Below the pieces are notes generated by a model. That model saw only the letters and a program-made list of their open reading frames with translations, ran no database searches and had not been told where the DNA came from. From the NCBI RefSeq assembly GCF_000314995.1, contig NZ_BAEO01000055.1, forward strand, positions 248,001 through 312,000: a DNA stretch of 64,000 nucleotides, written 5' to 3'. Position 1 is the first letter of the stretch; each line of letters starts with the position of its first letter. This stretch comes from Paraglaciecola arctica BSs20135 (GTDB taxonomy: Bacteria > Pseudomonadota > Gammaproteobacteria > Enterobacterales > Alteromonadaceae). Made by a program: the position numbers and the translations under genes. Shown piece by piece: positions 38,485 to 52,248 of the stretch.

Positions 38485-38672
38485 GTTTATTTCCTAGTTA
38501 ATTGAATACCCATGCATTATGTGGTGGTTTTAACCAGCTTTACGTAACAAGATGCTGGCTTTGTAACAAAGTGTAGGGACAAGCAGCTAATAGCTTCGAG
38601 TCGCGAGCTACTAGCTATAAGAAACACACCGTAAACAGTAGACAGTTTGAAGTTAAACATAAATTTTTGCGA

Positions 38673-38712
38673 AGCTCAAAGCTCAAAGCTCAAAGCTCAA
38701 AGCTCAAAGCTA
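38673..38712. repeat. 7-bp tandem repeat at the 3' end of the acyltransferase gene
   Basis: AGCTCAA is repeated five full times (38673-38707), followed by AGCTA. It abuts and runs into the stop codon of the acyltransferase gene (38710-38712), so slippage would chiefly alter the 3' untranslated region. Upstream at about 38590-38625 lies imperfect AGCT-rich sequence of the same style. Confidence 0.85.
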
Positions 38713-40443
38713 GTTTTTGTATGCCTGCCAACCCTCACCCATATATAACTTCAATAATTTCTCTGGTGCATTAGGCAAATCCACACTGAGCAATAATCCA
38801 GGTGTATCGTTAAAATTTTTATCTATGCCCAAACAATGAAAAATCGCGCCTAGTTTGTTGTAGTGTTTGAGCAGGATGGGCACGTCTTTACCATCTGCTT
38901 CAATACCTTTAAGTAAGGCATTCACATGCTTTTTTAGCCCATGTTGTTTAGCAAAATCCTGTAATTCAGGGTGTAACTGATGTTCAAACGGAGCTATTGG
39001 TGCCACTTTGTCAGTGGGCGTCACCATAGCTTGTTGGATAATAGCTGCACTGCGTACATCATATAATTTGCTAATAGAGACTGTGCCATACAAGGTCCGA
39101 TATTGAGGGTATTGGCAAACAAAGGCGCCAATCCCACGCCACAACAAAAACAAACCTTGGAAGCTACGTTGGTATTCAGGGATTAAAAATGAACGTCCCA
39201 TTTCTAAGCAGGGTTGTTTGCGATTCACAAAGTCAGGGCTAAAATCAAACATGCGCTGTAAATACAGGTTTTCTAAATTACCGTCGGCTAATAATTTGTC
39301 GGTTTGTCCCATGCGGTATGCGCCGATTATTTGCCCTGTGTGGGTTTTTATAACAAATAGGTGAGTGTAGGTGGCGTCGAAGTGATCGGTATCTAGTGCT
39401 TCACCACTGCCTTCGTTATGTTCACGAAAAACCATTTCCCGTAAACGGGCGATTTCATTCACTGTATTTGGCATTTGATTTTGATAACCAAAGTACACCG
39501 ACAGATCTTTGTGATCGAATAAGTGTTGCTCACTAGGAAGTTGCTGTACTTCTTGTAATATCAGGCTACCACTGGTTTCAATTGCGAGTGGTTGTAATTG
39601 AGCAACAGGATCAGCAGGCCAAGCTTTTTGCCAAGCAGGATCAAGCAAATAACTCTGTGCTCTAAACAATTCAGTTTGTTTGCCTGTATCTATGCCCTTT
39701 GCATAGTGTTTAATGGCGATTGCTTCACCTGCAGTCACAGTTATCTTAGCGTTGCGTTTGTTGACCAGTTCACGGGGTAACATCAAGATCCGGAATCGAA
39801 AATAAATCCGCCCTAAACGATAAAACAAGGAGCTATTTAAGCCACTCACAAATATAGGTAAATAGTGCGCGTTTGTGCGGTTGGCGATGCTGGCAATCAA
39901 TCTATTCCAACTATGGTCAGCAATGCGCCGCGTGTCTTTATGAAAATAGCTGACACGTCCAGCGGGAAAAAGAAGTAAGGCTCCACCGGTTTTCACATGT
40001 TTAAGACAAGTACGGATGGATGGTGCATTTCTCGGATCTTTTTCTGATAGTGGGTTGGTATAAATAAAATAGTCTTCAAGCTCGGGAAATATCTTTAACC
40101 CTTGGTTGGCCATCACTTTGATATCGGGGCGTACTTGTTCAATGGCCCAGGCTAAAAACACCCCTTCGATACCACCAAAAGGATGATTACTGGCGATTAC
40201 CAGTGGGCCCGTTTTAGGGATTTTAGCTTGTAACTCTTCAAGGCCTAACAATTGAATATTGAGCCCTTCTAATAGGCTTTTCGCGAAGCTTGTTTTGTCT
40301 AAACCGTGTAGGTTGTTTTCGCGATACAGACCATCTAACTTGTTGATAGCAAGAACTCGGTCTAATAATTTGACGATGATTTTTGTAAAAAAGTTCTTTT
40401 TATCATCAGGGATAACATTTAGCAGGCTGATGGCTGCAGGCAT
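38710..40443 (-). CDS. Bifunctional acyltransferase, OlsF-like (PlsC domain plus OlsB-type domain)
   Basis: The 577-residue protein has an N-terminal PlsC-like lysophospholipid acyltransferase ('VIASNHPFGGIEGVFLAW', the N-H-x-F-x-x form of the HX4D motif; 'LLFPAGRVSYFHKD') and a C-terminal OlsB/hemolysin-like acyl-ACP N-acyltransferase ('RLREMVFREHNEGSGEALD', 'MGRSFLIPEYQRSFQGLFLL'). This domain order is that of OlsF, which makes ornithine lipid in some proteobacteria. A glycine or other amino-acid lipid is also possible. The upstream start is TTG; ATG at 40443 is preferred. The HX4D Asp appears replaced by Glu (residue assignment by eye). Confidence 0.75.
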   Translation of the reverse strand: MPAAISLLNVIPDDKKNFFTKIIVKLLDRVLAINKLDGLYRENNLHGLDKTSFAKSLLEGLNIQLLGLEELQAKIPKTGPLVIASNHPFGGIEGVFLAWAIEQVRPDIKVMANQGLKIFPELEDYFIYTNPLSEKDPRNAPSIRTCLKHVKTGGALLLFPAGRVSYFHKDTRRIADHSWNRLIASIANRTNAHYLPIFVSGLNSSLFYRLGRIYFRFRILMLPRELVNKRNAKITVTAGEAIAIKHYAKGIDTGKQTELFRAQSYLLDPAWQKAWPADPVAQLQPLAIETSGSLILQEVQQLPSEQHLFDHKDLSVYFGYQNQMPNTVNEIARLREMVFREHNEGSGEALDTDHFDATYTHLFVIKTHTGQIIGAYRMGQTDKLLADGNLENLYLQRMFDFSPDFVNRKQPCLEMGRSFLIPEYQRSFQGLFLLWRGIGAFVCQYPQYRTLYGTVSISKLYDVRSAAIIQQAMVTPTDKVAPIAPFEHQLHPELQDFAKQHGLKKHVNALLKGIEADGKDVPILLKHYNKLGAIFHCLGIDKNFNDTPGLLLSVDLPNAPEKLLKLYMGEGWQAYKN

Positions 40444-40650
40444 AAAACAATTCCACAAAATAGATGAATAATTTAGGTCGGTAATAGTGCGTTAATTTAT
40501 TAAAAAATTCAGCAACTTCTTGTTCGAAGGGGCGTATTTTGTTGGCATAAAAATAAATGTTTCTAGAGTCTTAGTTTTTGAATGCTAATTTGAGGCATAA
40601 TAGGCACCTAGTTTAATTGGTTTTTTATTGAATATTCCAGCAGGACAAAG

Positions 40651-44929: not shown

Positions 44930-45427
44930 ATGCAAATATTTGATTATATTCTACAAACGTGGGAATTAGCGGTACAAGGAGAAAAGCAAGGCATTTGGTT
45001 TTGGGCGGCGGTTTACGTTTTTTTGGTATGTAACTATTCAGCGTTATTTCAACTACTTATTCGTCGTTGGCCAAGTACTAAAGGTGAATTATTACATATT
45101 GGTTTAGATAAGTTTGGTGCGGCTATTATATTAGCTGATCAAGATTACCGTGCTGCTGCACTTTATAGCTATCAAATAGAAGGTAAAACCTACCAAGGAA
45201 AACGTATTTCGCCTTGGGTTATTGTTGCTAGCCATAACGCCCAATTTGTACTCAAAAAGCAACTTTCCAAGGTTGAGACATTCCCCAACGGTAAGGTCAG
45301 TATTTTCTATAAACCTTCCAATCCCGCCAAAAGCTGGCTTATCTTGCCTAGTAAATTCGGTATAAGTATAACTTTATTAATCAGTGTGCTGCCCGCTTTT
45401 AGTTATTGGGTAGAATATTATGGATAA
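44930..45427 (+). CDS. DUF3592 family membrane protein
   Basis: The 165-residue product has two hydrophobic helices (about residues 22-38, 143-158) and between them the DUF3592 domain: 'ALYSYQIEGKTYQGKRISPW' and 'VSIFYKPSNPAKSWLI'. Function unknown; typical members are single-domain envelope proteins. The frame extends up to 44849 into the repeat, but AGGAG directly precedes the ATG at 44930, so that start is used. It overlaps the following P-loop gene by 8 bases, implying coupled translation. Confidence 0.85.
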   Translation: MQIFDYILQTWELAVQGEKQGIWFWAAVYVFLVCNYSALFQLLIRRWPSTKGELLHIGLDKFGAAIILADQDYRAAALYSYQIEGKTYQGKRISPWVIVASHNAQFVLKKQLSKVETFPNGKVSIFYKPSNPAKSWLILPSKFGISITLLISVLPAFSYWVEYYG

Positions 45428-45935
45428 CTCCCCCGTTCTTTATATTTTTTCAGGCCTTCCTGGAGTCGGTAAAAGCACCTTAGCAACTACACTGGCGAAA
45501 CATATAGGTGCTACTTATTTGCGGGTTGATACAATCGAACAAGGGCTAAGAGACTTTTACCTGACTGATATTTATGATGAAGGTTATCAACTGGCATTTA
45601 GGCTTGCGAAAGATAATTTAAAAATAGGTTTATCAGTCATTGGTGATTCATGTAATTCAATCACCGAATCAAGAACTGCATGGCAGCAAATCGCTACGGA
45701 TTTAGGTATTCAATTCGTAAATATAGAAGTGATTTGCTCAGATGAATCTGAGCATCAAGTTAGAGTAGAGACTCGTAAAACTAGTATCCCAAACTTAACT
45801 TTGCCAACATGGAAACAGGTTCAAGAGCGTGAATATCAGGTTTGGGAAAACGAAGTCTTAAAAGTTGATACTGCAAATCAAACTATTCAGCAATCCGTTT
45901 CTGACTTATTCCAATTACTTAAACAAACATATTAG
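45420..45935 (+). CDS. AAA/P-loop small kinase-like protein
   Basis: The 171-residue protein starts with Walker A 'SGLPGVGKSTLA' (about residues 11-22) and 'YLRVDTIEQGLRD', 'VIGDSCNSITESRTAW' in the switch region, like small AAA_33 kinases (phosphotransferases on nucleosides, sugars or antibiotics). No specific substrate is clear. It overlaps the DUF3592 gene by 8 bases. Nothing recognisable follows before 46050. Confidence 0.75.
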   Translation: MDNSPVLYIFSGLPGVGKSTLATTLAKHIGATYLRVDTIEQGLRDFYLTDIYDEGYQLAFRLAKDNLKIGLSVIGDSCNSITESRTAWQQIATDLGIQFVNIEVICSDESEHQVRVETRKTSIPNLTLPTWKQVQEREYQVWENEVLKVDTANQTIQQSVSDLFQLLKQTY

Positions 45936-46049
45936 GAAGTAAATGCTGAATTAGTCGTCAAATACAGCTGCTTTATATACTAAAGTCCAATGGTGGTTAT
46001 TTAATGACCACTGTATATTCTCAGGTCCCCTAATTATCTGTGGCCCTTG

Positions 46050-47516
46050 ATGCGTTTCTGGCAAAAGTATTTAAATTCAAAATTTTATTTCATGTTGATT
46101 TTTGTGATGTTTGCAGTTGCGTTGAGTGCAATCATATCTCTGTCTAAATCTGTTGAAAATCAGAGTCTGTTGGAAATCCGCAGCCTAACTCCTGCTTTTG
46201 ATATCGTTTCAGAGGAAATTTTAAAGCCGCTTTTTATTGCCGAGACAGTTGCACGCGCATCGGCCTTGAAATTACATATGAACGACAACGTGATTGATGA
46301 AGAAAAAATTACTAATATGCTTGCGGAAATGTCTGAAGAATTTGCAATGGATTTTTTTGTAGCAAGTGAAACAAGTCGCACTCAATACTACTCAGATGGC
46401 TCATCATTACCGCTAAACGCTGCAAAAGTAGAATGGTATTTTCGAGCAAAAAACGCATCACAAAATATCGTGGCTGCACTTGGTAATAGAAAAGATGTTC
46501 ATATTTATTTTGATATCAAAATTTATAATAAACAAGGCGATTTTTTAGGTTTTATTGGTGTCGGAAAAAGACTAAATAGTTTCATCACTTCATTCGAAAA
46601 AATTAAAGACAAGTATGATTACGACTTTGTTTTTGTCGATCACAATGATGATATTGTGCTTTCTTCAGATCAAAGTTTACTGGCAGACGGCAAAGGCATC
46701 AAAAAGCTACAGCAAGTGCCTTGGTTTAAGGCGCTCACATCTGTCCAACAGTCTGGACAGGAGCCTAATGATAATGTGCTGGTCAGCGTTGCAGGCAATG
46801 ATCTACTCATTTCCAAAGCGGATTTAAAGGTACTTAATTGGAAGTTTTTTTTAGTCAATTCATTGAATGTAAGACAAAATGAAACCACAAAGGTGTTTAT
46901 TCTACAGACACTTTACATCGCGTTTGTATTATTACTTGGGCTATTAATTGCTCGGATAGCAATACCTTACATTCAAGCTGAGTTTGCTAGCAAACATCAA
47001 AATGACCCCCTAACTCAATTGCCAAATAGAGCCCATTTAGCTTGGCGTTTCAAACAGATCGTCAAAGAAAAACAACATGTATCAGCGATTATTGCCGATA
47101 TTGATTTCTTCAAAACTATCAATGATACCCATGGTCATGCAGTTGGCGATTTAATCCTTTGCGAATTTGCAAAAGTGATTAAATCTCAATTACGTGATGT
47201 TGACGTAATGGGTCGTTGGGGTGGAGAAGAATTTGTGATCCTATTGCCATCCACAGACTTCCAAATGGCTTATGAAGTTGCTGAAAGGGCAAGAGTTGCT
47301 ATATCACGTCATAACTTTATGTCAGATGATAAAGTGTTAAACATGACCGCAAGCTTCGGTGTTGCGTTTAGAGCCAATGCCTACAAGCTAGAGGATATAG
47401 TTAAGCATGCGGATGAAGCACTTTACCAGGCAAAACGTGAAGGGCGAAACACCGTTCGAACTACTGAAGATGTTGTAGTTAACAAGTTAGCAAGTTTTAA
47501 GAAGCTGCGACTCTAG
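46050..47516 (+). CDS. Membrane-bound diguanylate cyclase with periplasmic sensor domain
   Basis: The 488-residue protein has an N-terminal transmembrane helix ('FYFMLIFVMFAVALSAIIS'), a periplasmic dCache/PAS-like sensor (about residues 40-270; 'DFLGFIGVGKRL' and 'YDYDFVFVDHNDDIVLSSD' are typical), a second helix ('IAFVLLLGLLIARI') and a GGDEF domain. 'GGEEF' (about 400) is intact, with the I-site RDVD five residues upstream. ATG at 46050 is chosen; TTG three bases earlier is the alternative. It precedes the split PAS-GGDEF-EAL gene on the same strand. Confidence 0.93.
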   Translation: MRFWQKYLNSKFYFMLIFVMFAVALSAIISLSKSVENQSLLEIRSLTPAFDIVSEEILKPLFIAETVARASALKLHMNDNVIDEEKITNMLAEMSEEFAMDFFVASETSRTQYYSDGSSLPLNAAKVEWYFRAKNASQNIVAALGNRKDVHIYFDIKIYNKQGDFLGFIGVGKRLNSFITSFEKIKDKYDYDFVFVDHNDDIVLSSDQSLLADGKGIKKLQQVPWFKALTSVQQSGQEPNDNVLVSVAGNDLLISKADLKVLNWKFFLVNSLNVRQNETTKVFILQTLYIAFVLLLGLLIARIAIPYIQAEFASKHQNDPLTQLPNRAHLAWRFKQIVKEKQHVSAIIADIDFFKTINDTHGHAVGDLILCEFAKVIKSQLRDVDVMGRWGGEEFVILLPSTDFQMAYEVAERARVAISRHNFMSDDKVLNMTASFGVAFRANAYKLEDIVKHADEALYQAKREGRNTVRTTEDVVVNKLASFKKLRL

Positions 47517-47658
47517 CTTAAGACCAGATAATTTTTAGACTAGCTAAACCGTATTTATTGACGTAATGGATAGTGATTTCAGCTAGTCACAGCAACGATA
47601 CTTTTTTAATCATTAAGCAATAACCAACGCATGATAAAACTGTAAAATGAGGTAATGA

Positions 47659-50300
47659 ATGCTCGAATCGAAAACCAATAGAGAGATGTTGGACTACGTC
47701 GATAGTATCATTAACACTGTGCGGCACCCCTTAATTACGCTAGATCAGAATTTAAAGGTAGTCACTGTAAACCGTTCTTTTTATGCGTTTTTTAAATCCA
47801 AGCCTGAAAATACTATCGGGCACTATATCTTTGAACTAGATAAAAGACAGTGGGATATTCCCGTATTGAGAGAACTGTTGCAAACTGTTGCACGGCAAAA
47901 AACCAGTTTTGATGACTATGTGGTTGAGCAAAATTTTGCCATCATTGGTCGGCGGATCATGTTGTTGAATGCCCGCCAGGTTAAACAAGCTGAAGGTAAA
48001 GAGCGCATTATTTTATTGGTCATGGAGGACATCACCGAAAGGGCTGATGAATTAGTCATTGCTAAAAAAGAAAAAGATAAGCGAGCAGATGAACTTGTCA
48101 TTGCTAATAAAGAAAAAGAAATGCGAGCAGATGAACTAGTCATTGCTAATGAAGAAAAAGATAAGCGAGCAGATGAACTAGTCATTGCTAATGAAGAAAA
48201 AGATAAGCGAGCAGGTGAACTAGTCATTGCTAATGAAGAGAAAGAAAAGCGAGCGGATGAACTAGTCGTTGCAAATGAAGAAAAGAAAAGCGAGCAAATG
48301 AATTAGGCATTGCAGAAGACGAGAAAGATAAGCGAGCAGATGAATTAGATATTGCCAATGAAGAAAAATATAAACGGGCAGATGAATTAAGCATTGCCAA
48401 TAAAGAAAAAGCTAAGCGAGCAGATGAGTTATTCATTGCCAACGAAAAGCTGGCATTTCAAAGCAAGGAGAAAGATAAGAGAGCGGATGAACTTGTCATT
48501 GCTAATGAAGAAAAAGAAAAGCGAGCGGATGAATTAGGTATTGCCAATGTAGAGAAATATAAACGGGCAGATGAGCTAGTCATTGCGAACAAAGAGAGAG
48601 AACTTCTGCTACGAAAGCTAAAACGTGCCGCCAGTGTTTTTAGCCATTCCAATGAGGGCATCATGATAACCGATGCCACTGCCACTATTACTGAAGTCAA
48701 CGATACTTTCAGCCGTATTACTGGATACACTTCTGAGGAAGTGCTGGGGAAATACCCAAGAATACTTCAATCTGGTCGTCATTCGTCAGAATTTTATGAT
48801 GAAATGTGGACTACGCTAAAAACACAAGATCGCTGGAGTGGCGAGTTATGGAACCGTCGTAAAAATGGCGATGTTTTCCCCGCAATGCTCACCATCAGCA
48901 TCGTAAGAAATGCAGCTGGTTTGGTTCAACATTACGTTTCATTATACACTGATATTACAACGATGAAGGCGTATCAGGGGCAACTGGAACATATCGCTCA
49001 CTACGACTTACTGACTAATCTGCCTAACCGAGTATTACTGGCAGATCGCCTAAGCCATGCTATGGCGCAGTGTCAACGTCGCAACCAGTCACTAGCGGTT
49101 GCGTTTATGGACTTGGATGGCTTCAAAAAAGTCAATGATAATTACGGCCACAATGTGGGAGATGAGCTACTCATTGCCTTGTCACAACGCATGAAAGAGG
49201 CATTACGTGAAAGTGATACCCTCGCTCGTATTGGCGGCGATGAATTTGTTGCAGTTATAGTAGATTTAGAAACCTTCGAGGATAGTCAGCCTGTATTAGA
49301 ACGTCTACTAAAGGCCGCTGCTGATCCTGTTACCTTGGGTGGTAACCTAATACAAGTTTCAGCGAGTATTGGTGTGACGCTTTACCCACAAGACGGTTCA
49401 GACGCAGATCAACTTATGCGTCACGCCGACCAAGCTATGTATGTTGCCAAACATGAAGGTAAGAACCGTTATTGTCTGTTTGATACCGTTCAAGAGAAAG
49501 CGAGCAAAACGCAATTAGAAAGTATAGATGATATTCGCTTAGCTTTGGAGCGACGTGAGTTTGTGCTGCACTATCAACCGAAAGTGAATATGCGCACTGG
49601 CGTAGTAATAGGCGTAGAAGCTTTAATCCGCTGGCAGCATCCAGTGCGCGGTTTAGTACCACCTTTAGAATTTTTACCGGTAATTGAAGGTCAAGCTATT
49701 AGTCTGGAAATTGGCGAATGGGTCATACATAGTGCATTGACCCAAATAAGTCAGTGGCAAAGCATGGCGTTTAATCTACCCATCAGTGTCAACATCAGCG
49801 GTTATCAAATACAACAAGGTAATTTTGCAACTCGCATAGCAGCATTGTTGGCTACCCATCCTGAAGTAAACCCATTCTGTTTAGAATTAGAAATACTGGA
49901 AACCAGTGCGTTACATGACATCAGCAAAGTGTCTGCAACTATGAATGCATGCCATGATTTAGGTGTACGCTTTGCCTTAGATGACTTCGGTACTGGGTAT
50001 TCATCACTTACCCACCTCAGGCGCCTGCCAGCACAATTGATTAAAATCGACCAGAGCTTCGTACGCGACATGTTAGAGGATGCAGACGATTGTGCAATTG
50101 TTGAAGGTGTAATTGGGCTCGCTAACGCATTTCGGCGTGACGTAATAGCTGAGGGTGTAGAAACCATCGCTCATGGAGTCGCACTGTTACAACTAGGTTG
50201 TGAGTTGGCGCAGGGGTTTGGTATTGCTCGACCTATGCCTTCCGGTGATATACCAGAATGGATATCTAACTGGGTAGCTAATGATTCTTGGCGGGCATGA
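47659..50300 (+). pseudogene. Split PAS / 14-residue-repeat / PAS / GGDEF / EAL gene (one-base deletion)
   Basis: Read across one frameshift this is a protein of about 880 residues: N-terminal PAS-like domain (about 1-125), thirteen copies of a 14-residue helix repeat (about 128-315), a PAS domain ('GIMITDATATITEVNDTFSR'), an active-looking GGDEF ('GGDEF' with RESD I-site) and an EAL domain ('EALIRW', 'DDFGTGYSSL', 'AEGVET'). The first part stops at 48304-48306; the second is open from at least 48286 to 50300. The junction lies in an A-run at 48281-48284, four A's where other copies of the repeat have five; one extra A restores the frame. ATG at 48663 could start a separate PAS-GGDEF-EAL protein. 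Real mutation, phase-variable site or sequencing error cannot be told apart here. Confidence 0.85.
48040..48600 (+). repeat. 42-bp coding tandem repeat (RADELVIANEEKDK)
   Basis: Thirteen copies of a 14-residue unit with consensus RADELVIANEEKDK, two heptads per unit, form a predicted long coiled-coil signalling helix between two PAS domains. Copies vary at the DNA level. Between copies 10 and 11 an extra 'LAFQS' insert occurs. The frameshift lies between copies 6 and 7. Confidence 0.9.
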
Positions 50301-50376
50301 GGACTAAACTACAAGATTTCTCATTTCTTTTTTTCAGTAGAATATAATGGAGAACAGAATTCTGGGATAAACGTAT

Positions 50377-51033
50377 TTAAGCTTTTGTTAGATACTGCCC
50401 CAAAAACATAGCCACCGCAGAATCAATAATTTGCTGATATTTAGATTGCTCTGGAAATTCACCAAAGCCAATTATTTGTGGCCAATAGGCGAAAGACTTG
50501 AGTAGGCCGGTAAATTGTGTGGCAGCAATGTCAATATCCGCAATCACTAAACGCCCATCTTCTGTTGCCTTTTTCAACCATATGTTGAGGCCACTTTCTG
50601 TGTCTGCAATGTGAGCCAAGGTTTGTTGTTTAGTATTTTCATTGTGAAGGCATTCGGCAATGATTAAACGAGACACACTGATAAAGGTGGTTGATTTCAG
50701 TAATGCCATTTCTTGCTCGGCAATAGCAGTTAACTGTTCTTCTATAGAAAGTGCTTTTTGATATGTGTAAGCGGTTGCGGTTAACGCTTGTTCCCACATG
50801 ATTGTCGTGATCTCTGTAAACAATGCGTCTTTACTTGAGAAGTGATTATATACAGTTCGTTTTGACACATTGGCTGTTTTCGCTATCTGATCCATACTGG
50901 TTTTTTGAAACCCATGGCTATCAAATTCTTGTATTGCCGCAGCCACTATGTCTGATTTTTTGCGTTCGCTTAAGGTCTGTTTGTCTTGCATTTTTGCACT
51001 TTTTTTAGGCTTCTGTAAACACCTTACACTCAT
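50377..51033 (-). CDS. TetR/AcrR-family transcriptional repressor
   Basis: The 218-residue regulator has the TetR HTH ('TSMDQIAKTANVSKRTVYNH', about residues 46-65, just after a lysine-rich tail) and an all-helical ligand-binding half. It is divergent from the metallo-beta-lactamase-fold hydrolase gene, 72 bases away, with two dyads of its likely binding site between and over its own start. An alternative ATG at 50991 removes the basic N-terminal tail. The likely role is repression of itself and the hydrolase until a ligand, probably lipid- or drug-like, binds; the ligand is unknown. Confidence 0.9.
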   Translation of the reverse strand: MSVRCLQKPKKSAKMQDKQTLSERKKSDIVAAAIQEFDSHGFQKTSMDQIAKTANVSKRTVYNHFSSKDALFTEITTIMWEQALTATAYTYQKALSIEEQLTAIAEQEMALLKSTTFISVSRLIIAECLHNENTKQQTLAHIADTESGLNIWLKKATEDGRLVIADIDIAATQFTGLLKSFAYWPQIIGFGEFPEQSKYQQIIDSAVAMFLGQYLTKA

Positions 51034-51041
51034 GAGTTTAC
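51015..51041. promoter_or_regulatory. Candidate TetR operator 1, over the regulator start
   Basis: GTAAAC (51015-51020) and GTTTAC (51036-51041) form an inverted pair 15 bases apart that spans the regulator's ATG. The same half-sites recur in operator 2, supporting both. Confidence 0.5.
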
Positions 51042-51055
51042 TTTTTCAATTTTAA

Positions 51056-51082
51056 ATGTAAACTGTACAGTGTAGTTTACAT
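51056..51082. promoter_or_regulatory. Candidate TetR operator 2, between the divergent genes
   Basis: ATGTAAACT (51056-51064) and AGTTTACAT (51074-51082) are perfect inverted repeats with a 9-base spacer. A second perfect palindrome, ACTGTACAGT (51062-51071), overlaps it. The hydrolase start follows at 51106. Confidence 0.7.
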
Positions 51083-51105
51083 GTTTTGAGATTGAGCAAT
51101 ATTAA

Positions 51106-52248
51106 ATGAGCAACAAAGATTATTGGTGGGCTAAGTGGTTACTGCTAACCATTTTGGTAATGACAATAAATAAATCGATAGCGGGAGGGGCAAAAATGGA
51201 TAACGCATTGGCTAATGTGCGATTAGAGAGTAGTCATCTTGACGATGGGGCTTATGTAAATGCGGATCCACAAGTAAAGCAGGATATGTCAAAACTAGGC
51301 GGCATTATCAAACGTTTTATTTTTGAAAAGCGGATTGATCCTGTGCCTATTAAAATGCCGTTAAGTCAGATAGATATAAAGGCGTTAGATGAGCATTCAA
51401 AAGATGCAGTTTATCGTTTAGGGCATTCCAGCATGTTGCTTAAACTCAACAATCAAATTTGGCTAACTGACCCAGTATTTTCAGAGCGCGCGTCACCTGT
51501 GCAATGGATGGGACCAAAACGTTTTCATGCTGTTCCATTGGAATTAGAGGGAATAAAAACCATTAAAGGTGTTGTTATCTCTCATGATCATTACGATCAC
51601 TTAGATAAAAGCACAATTCAATTACTAAAGGATAGGGTTGAGTATTTTATTGTACCTTTAGGTGTAGATAAACATCTGCTGGACTGGGGCGTGCCTAAGG
51701 AAAAAATCCATGTCCTCGACTGGTGGCAGGAGATAACTATAGATGAAATCAAATTTGTGGCGACACCGGCCCAGCATTTTTCTGGTCGTGGAGTATTTGA
51801 CGGTAACGAAACCTTGTGGGCGTCTTGGGTGATTAAAACATCGCAACACAGCCTATTTTTCAGCGGTGACAGTGGCTACTTTGATGGATTTAAATTAATA
51901 GGTGAGCGTTATGGCCCATTTGATCTGACTATGATGGAAACTGGGGCCTACGACAAAGACTGGGCCGACATTCATATGCTGCCAGAGCAAAGTGTTCAAG
52001 CCCACCTTGATTTAAATGGCCGGGTTTTAATGCCTATTCACAATGGCACTTTCGATTTGGCACTACACCCTTGGTATGAACCTTTCGCTCGTTTATCAAA
52101 AGCGGCAACCAGTCACAATATTGAAATTGCCACACCTATTATGGGTGAAAAAGTATTGTTTAATCAATCTAGAGTAAACCAACGCTGGTGGGCCGGTATC
52201 AGTCAAGTGGTGAACGAGCTCAGGTTACCAAGGCCTGATCAAAGTTAA
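51106..52248 (+). CDS. Metallo-beta-lactamase-fold hydrolase (NAPE-PLD-like)
   Basis: The 380-residue protein has a membrane-proximal hydrophobic N-terminus (residues 8-26) and an MBL domain: 'HSSMLLKLNNQIWLTDPVF', the metal motif 'SHDHYDHLD' (H-x-H-x-D-H, about residues 166-174), 'PAQHFSGRG', 'FFSGDSGYF' and a distal His in 'MPIHNGTFDL'. The layout matches the N-acyl-phosphatidylethanolamine phospholipase D group; phospholipid cleavage is an inference. It is divergent from a TetR regulator, which likely controls it. No SD is obvious before the ATG. Confidence 0.88.
   Translation: MSNKDYWWAKWLLLTILVMTINKSIAGGAKMDNALANVRLESSHLDDGAYVNADPQVKQDMSKLGGIIKRFIFEKRIDPVPIKMPLSQIDIKALDEHSKDAVYRLGHSSMLLKLNNQIWLTDPVFSERASPVQWMGPKRFHAVPLELEGIKTIKGVVISHDHYDHLDKSTIQLLKDRVEYFIVPLGVDKHLLDWGVPKEKIHVLDWWQEITIDEIKFVATPAQHFSGRGVFDGNETLWASWVIKTSQHSLFFSGDSGYFDGFKLIGERYGPFDLTMMETGAYDKDWADIHMLPEQSVQAHLDLNGRVLMPIHNGTFDLALHPWYEPFARLSKAATSHNIEIATPIMGEKVLFNQSRVNQRWWAGISQVVNELRLPRPDQS

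Follow-up and report, generated by a model that had tools for sequence, protein, structure and literature searches.

The window, a 64,000-nucleotide stretch of the Paraglaciecola arctica BSs20135 genome (G000:C18:248001-312000), carries what is probably an ancestral gene for c-di-GMP turnover, split in this strain by a one-base loss that was itself probably recent. The ancestral gene would have encoded a single protein composed of a first PAS domain (PAS1), an extended rod whose 14- and 21-residue repeats keep heptad phase and which may have passed the signal on, a second PAS domain (PAS2), and GGDEF and EAL domains. One base would then have been lost in the sixth repeat unit, a loss that we infer to be real in the cell, with translation ending about 20 bases on. 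This would leave ORF1 to encode PAS1 with a stub of the rod, and the PAS2-GGDEF-EAL half would be either untranslated or, if expressed, weakly translated from an ATG at 48663 into an enzyme freed from the control of PAS1.

Two open frames make up the locus (Table 1). The second is -1 relative to that of ORF1; its open stretch is preceded by a TGA at 48276-48278, and the ATG at 48663 is the first of any ATG, GTG, or TTG in it. ORF1 matches PAS_4 at residues 23-129 (E 1.3e-8), and the second frame matches PAS_9 (residues 126-227), GGDEF (residues 240-397, E 1.3e-50), and EAL (residues 417-652, E 1.3e-67), in the order found in c-di-GMP enzymes. By eye, the second frame also holds the motifs GGDEF, EAL, and DDFGTGYSS and an RxxD I-site (RESD-TLARI-GGDEF, GVEALIRW, and DDFGTGYSS), which we take to be the catalytic and I-site motifs of such enzymes. 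By sequence, its closest relatives of known structure include 5m3c, 4rnh, and 5xgb, the last of which aligns across the PAS to EAL region (query 115-656). The best NCBIfam match is the phosphodiesterase DibA (NF045675; E 1e-176, residues 98-658), with a score of 589 against the curated equivalog cut-off of 980 bits when the split half alone is scored. The upstream neighbor is a GGDEF gene (46047-47516) with a sub-threshold Cache match, and the downstream neighbor, on the opposite strand, was named TetR-like by eye. No Rfam match was found at gathering thresholds in 45000-52000. A sequence-only reading had ended the PAS-plus-repeat part at 48304-48306 with everything after it in the next frame, and the boundaries of the two open frames agree with this.

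Table 1 Features of the split locus and its measured orthologs
Feature	Position	Strand	Length	Linker (residues)	Description
ORF1	47659-48306	+	215 aa		N-terminal PAS and repeat units 1-6; premature stop TAG 48304-48306
Coding minisatellite	48046-48611	+			13 units in all: 42 bp in eleven (a length assumed for the last), 41 bp in one, 63 bp in one
Odd unit (sixth)	48256-48296	+	41 bp		A4 at 48281-48284; frame-shifting lesion
Second open frame	48279-50300	+	673 codons		Units 7-13, PAS2, GGDEF, EAL
Candidate internal ribosome-binding site and start	48654-48665	+			GAGGG, 4-nt spacer, ATG 48663; inside PAS2; weak
ORF2 from first ATG	48663-50300	+	545 aa		N-clipped PAS2-GGDEF-EAL
Ortholog G012			802 codons	102	One frame
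Ortholog G019:C5			918 codons	228	One frame
Ortholog Colwellia sp. C1TZA3	L034:1970-5644		1225 codons	543	One frame
Ortholog G609			968 codons	277	One frame
Ortholog G107:C12			755 codons	67	One frame
Ortholog G019:C194			731 codons	53	One frame
Ortholog G011	L114, G011:C1:613000-628000			95	Broken elsewhere

The lesion lies within a tandem array whose units encode repeats of two or three heptads (14 or 21 residues). Tandem Repeats Finder reported a 42-bp array at 48046-48446 and 48471-48586, and the 12 spacings between unit starts, counted from 48046, are 42 (five times), 41, 42 (three times), 63, and 42 (twice). At the place where the odd unit has four A's, five are present in 7 of the 11 42-bp units (those starting at 48046, 48088, 48130, 48172, 48339, 48381, and 48486) and absent from the remaining 4. 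The contrast of four A's with five, drawn by the sequence-only reading, thus holds for the odd unit, but the example it gave at 48490-48494 contains no A run; the real run lies 21 bases off, at 48511-48515. As it had also proposed, the 14-residue repeat resumes in the second frame directly past the lesion. In the eleven 42-bp units, minor letters make up on average 0.195 of third codon positions, against 0.104 of first and 0.078 of second positions, an excess expected of coding units. When the array was used as a DNA query against this genome, no second copy appeared at E up to 1e-5.

Relatives carry the joined form, in keeping with the earlier suggestion that a single frame lesion parts the PAS half from the PAS-GGDEF-EAL half. 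A search with the N-terminal PAS (132 aa) gave matches in 12 genomes of the 395 in the family and 5 of the 22 in the genus, this genome counted in both, and six orthologs hold the N-terminal PAS, rod, PAS, GGDEF, and EAL in one unsplit frame. Linker lengths were taken from one anchor motif, [EQ]D[IMV]T where PAS1 ends, to another, RAA in PAS2. The first linker search gave rows only where both anchors matched (5 loci of distinct genes among 22 ids); widened anchors applied to 13 loci gave linkers in 6, no pair in L114 or L166, and no row for L165 and L168-L171. Each of the seven measured ortholog linkers has a length of 4 mod 7, and none shows a net length change other than whole heptads. The linker of the window is 599 nt, or 3 x 200 - 1, and 200 codons would also be 4 mod 7. 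Since 599 nt is one short of the in-phase 600, we infer that one base was lost from an in-phase ancestor in this array. The split is not a product of chance, because six orthologs are one continuous protein and the linker falls one nucleotide short of the phase that the orthologs keep. Further matches to the N-terminal PAS in G013, G542, G579, G643, and G673 lie in open frames of 397-1000 with no stop within the match, and with the motifs used these five gave no linker row. An additional ortholog, on G019:C49, runs off the contig end inside its array.

The G011 ortholog is broken in other places, with a nonsense codon in PAS1 and a frame break that precedes the array. A kinase-like neighbor gene in G011 is spread over three frames, its G012 counterpart being one frame of 554 codons, and three pairs of adjacent partial matches among 75 TonB-receptor matches suggest further frame breaks in that assembly. 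We considered the G011 break as a sign of recurrent switching and set it aside, as the neighbor gene and the TonB-receptor matches suggest that frame breaks in that assembly are not confined to this gene.

Both halves of the split gene look constrained, without long decay in either, as judged from Nei-Gojobori omega for pairs of the window gene with the orthologs of G011, G012, G019:C5, and Colwellia. Across the four pairs omega was 0.17-0.30 for the N half (92-97 codons) and 0.12-0.16 for the C half (556-558 codons); these pairwise values span the whole divergence (dS 0.64-0.92) and so give the lesion no date.

The strongest competitor of a genuine loss is an assembly or sequencing error in a hard-to-assemble 42-bp array, with the gene intact in the cell, which we judge unlikely though by no means negligible. 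The genome is a 5.96-Mb draft of 72 contigs, and contigs of two other genomes end inside such arrays (G019:C49, G355:C111, and G355:C166). In addition, a second GGDEF-EAL gene of this genome (L118, G000:C44:124496-125201, minus strand) changes frame within EAL at a run of eight A, which error or mutation could explain; that run is longer and more slippage-prone than the tract described here. Against an error, the matched stretch is free of stops in 84 of 84 matches to the TonB-receptor barrel, 76 of 77 to GGDEF, and 35 of 36 to EAL, the one EAL exception being the gene with the run of eight A; these counts cover matched domain stretches, and frame breaks outside domains are invisible to them. 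With so few stops, frame breaks are not common across the assembly, and a generally error-rich assembly is unlikely, although repeats are a case apart. Moreover, mis-assembly of a repeat would more naturally add or drop whole units than one base.

Far less probable is a switch of frame by recombination within the array, in which the gain or loss of a 41-bp unit among whole-heptad units would reframe everything downstream. In such a "frame counter", which we likewise rate as very improbable, array recombination would switch cells from a sensor-coupled enzyme to a separate output enzyme and back, with other unit changes altering the rod by whole heptads. Rod length is highly variable among the orthologs, and exact matches of up to 23 bp flank the odd unit on both sides; against it, the 42-bp units are on average 79% identical (57-100%), and no odd, non-heptad unit occurs among 16 other arrays of this repeat. 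These arrays, collected with a repeat profile and from the orthologs, are those of the seven orthologs in Table 1, together with G019:C49, G107:C6, G107:C2, G167, three in G266, G355:C111, and G355:C166. A contig end cuts three of them (G019:C49, G355:C111, and G355:C166), and the two in G355 are possibly halves of one; as far as visible, none of the 16 changes frame inside the array. If frame states were mixed within a clone, this would be a new way of disconnecting a sensor from its output.

As a candidate for switching, array recombination is better than slippage in the A run, which the sequence-only reading had put forward as an on/off switch and which we consider most improbable as a source of phase variation. 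The lesion does sit within an A run and both halves are still constrained, but the tract is short (A4 here and A5 in the sister units), MutS and MutL are intact (1224.5 bits, frame of 890, and 563.6 bits, frame of 615, respectively), and the frame is kept in all 16 other arrays as noted above. The tract is not the long, slippage-prone one of a contingency locus. Simple-repeat contingency loci use longer tracts, long enough to mutate often. In favor of slippage, VF_1200, annotated as a putative diguanylate cyclase of Vibrio fischeri and carrying a 9-T run, is listed among coding repeats found mutagenic (PMC5854121). The same source describes a single-nucleotide indel rate that climbs with run length in Vibrio mutS mutants and gives, in its Table 1, 1.71e-11 and 5.68e-11 indels per nucleotide per generation for wild-type Vibrio mutation-accumulation lines. 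Clostridioides difficile PdcB, a c-di-GMP phosphodiesterase, is described as varying randomly in the population, as the proposed switch would, but it does so by promoter inversion and not by coding frameshift (PMC9286219).

We rejected programmed -1 ribosomal frameshifting on A_AAG (48282-48285), which would join both halves at a set level and to which we give scarcely any credence, as both a stimulator and conservation are lacking. The second frame is -1 to ORF1 as required, and A_AA.G heads the tetramer order with a pseudoknot stimulator in Escherichia coli, but motif constructs without a stimulator averaged 0.147% versus 0.112% without the motif (PMC4066793, section 16), the 92 nt after 48288 (48289-48380) are no more stably folded than shuffled sequences (z +0.78, for folds free of pseudoknots), no strong Shine-Dalgarno-like stretch was seen by eye upstream of A_AAG, and the split is not conserved, with six orthologs unsplit and G011 split elsewhere.

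Under the preferred reading of a one-base loss, the locus is most likely one more frameshift-split signaling gene, and the output half of the split enzyme may still be made. The ATG at 48663 is residue 129 of the second frame, and PAS_9 begins at 126. The "sensor-less enzyme" once expected from this start would indeed have lost PAS1, the coil, and the edge of PAS2, yet most of PAS2 would remain in it. The codons GAG GGC ATC before the ATG are identical in 6 of the 6 orthologs compared, but 5% of the four-column windows in the same alignment equal the conservation of its best one. GAG encodes that Glu in 16 of 34 low-GC relatives versus 10.3 expected from their own usage, the rows not being independent. 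A start driven by the GAGGG is thus a weak candidate. A similar situation is described for the Shigella pseudogenes dgcE, dgcQ, and dgcN, in which a nonsense mutation lies before GGDEF and c-di-GMP is still made; several proteins were reported from these pseudogenes, fitting several starts (PMC11327459). In contrast, the lesion in the window is a frameshift in a repeat, with putative expression of the output half.

The rod is a more interesting by-product than the split. As its units are of 14 or 21 residues, gain or loss of units alone preserves the seven-residue phase, and that phase is kept over a roughly tenfold span of rod length among the measured relatives. The rod is presumably a coiled coil. 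An AlphaFold2 model of ORF1 built with 8 sequences predicts a helix over residues 116-214 at a low mean pLDDT of 47.7. As the rod would, the linkers of PadC and PadC-EAL form a coiled coil that lies between the sensor and the c-di-GMP output, and most PadC linker lengths (54% of PadCs) are reported to differ by multiples of seven (PMC9587094). While the coil of PadC is described as running from the sensor to GGDEF, the rod of the window runs from PAS to PAS, is built of tandem 14/21-residue units, and measures 53-543 residues in the seven relatives. The S-helix shares with the presumed coil of the rod a position beside PAS, GGDEF, EAL, and other signaling domains (PMC1592074); compared by description, it has about 40 residues, mostly five heptads, whereas the rod is a long tandem array. 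A literature search with one repeat peptide string returned no match, which we do not take as a sign that the rod has gone unpublished. Orthologs with so wide a range of in-phase rod lengths could serve to test over what distance a coiled coil can transmit a signal from a sensor to a c-di-GMP enzyme.

The rod also looks to be a shared module. The repeat profile matched 5 of 394 order genomes, this one included, and the same 14/21-residue repeat precedes other signaling modules at L173 (G107:C2), L174 (G167:C1), and L175-L177 (G266:C1). By eye, the output behind the G107:C2 array is histidine kinase-like.

Two other short repeats were observed in the window. Five copies of TTTATTGT at 1165-1206 lie just upstream of a minus-strand open frame (161-1150) and could vary promoter spacing, and AAGCTCA is repeated 5.7 times at 38672-38711, beside the end of a minus-strand ORF (38710-40458). 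In the genome as a whole, 77 GGDEF and 36 EAL domain matches constitute a large c-di-GMP repertoire.
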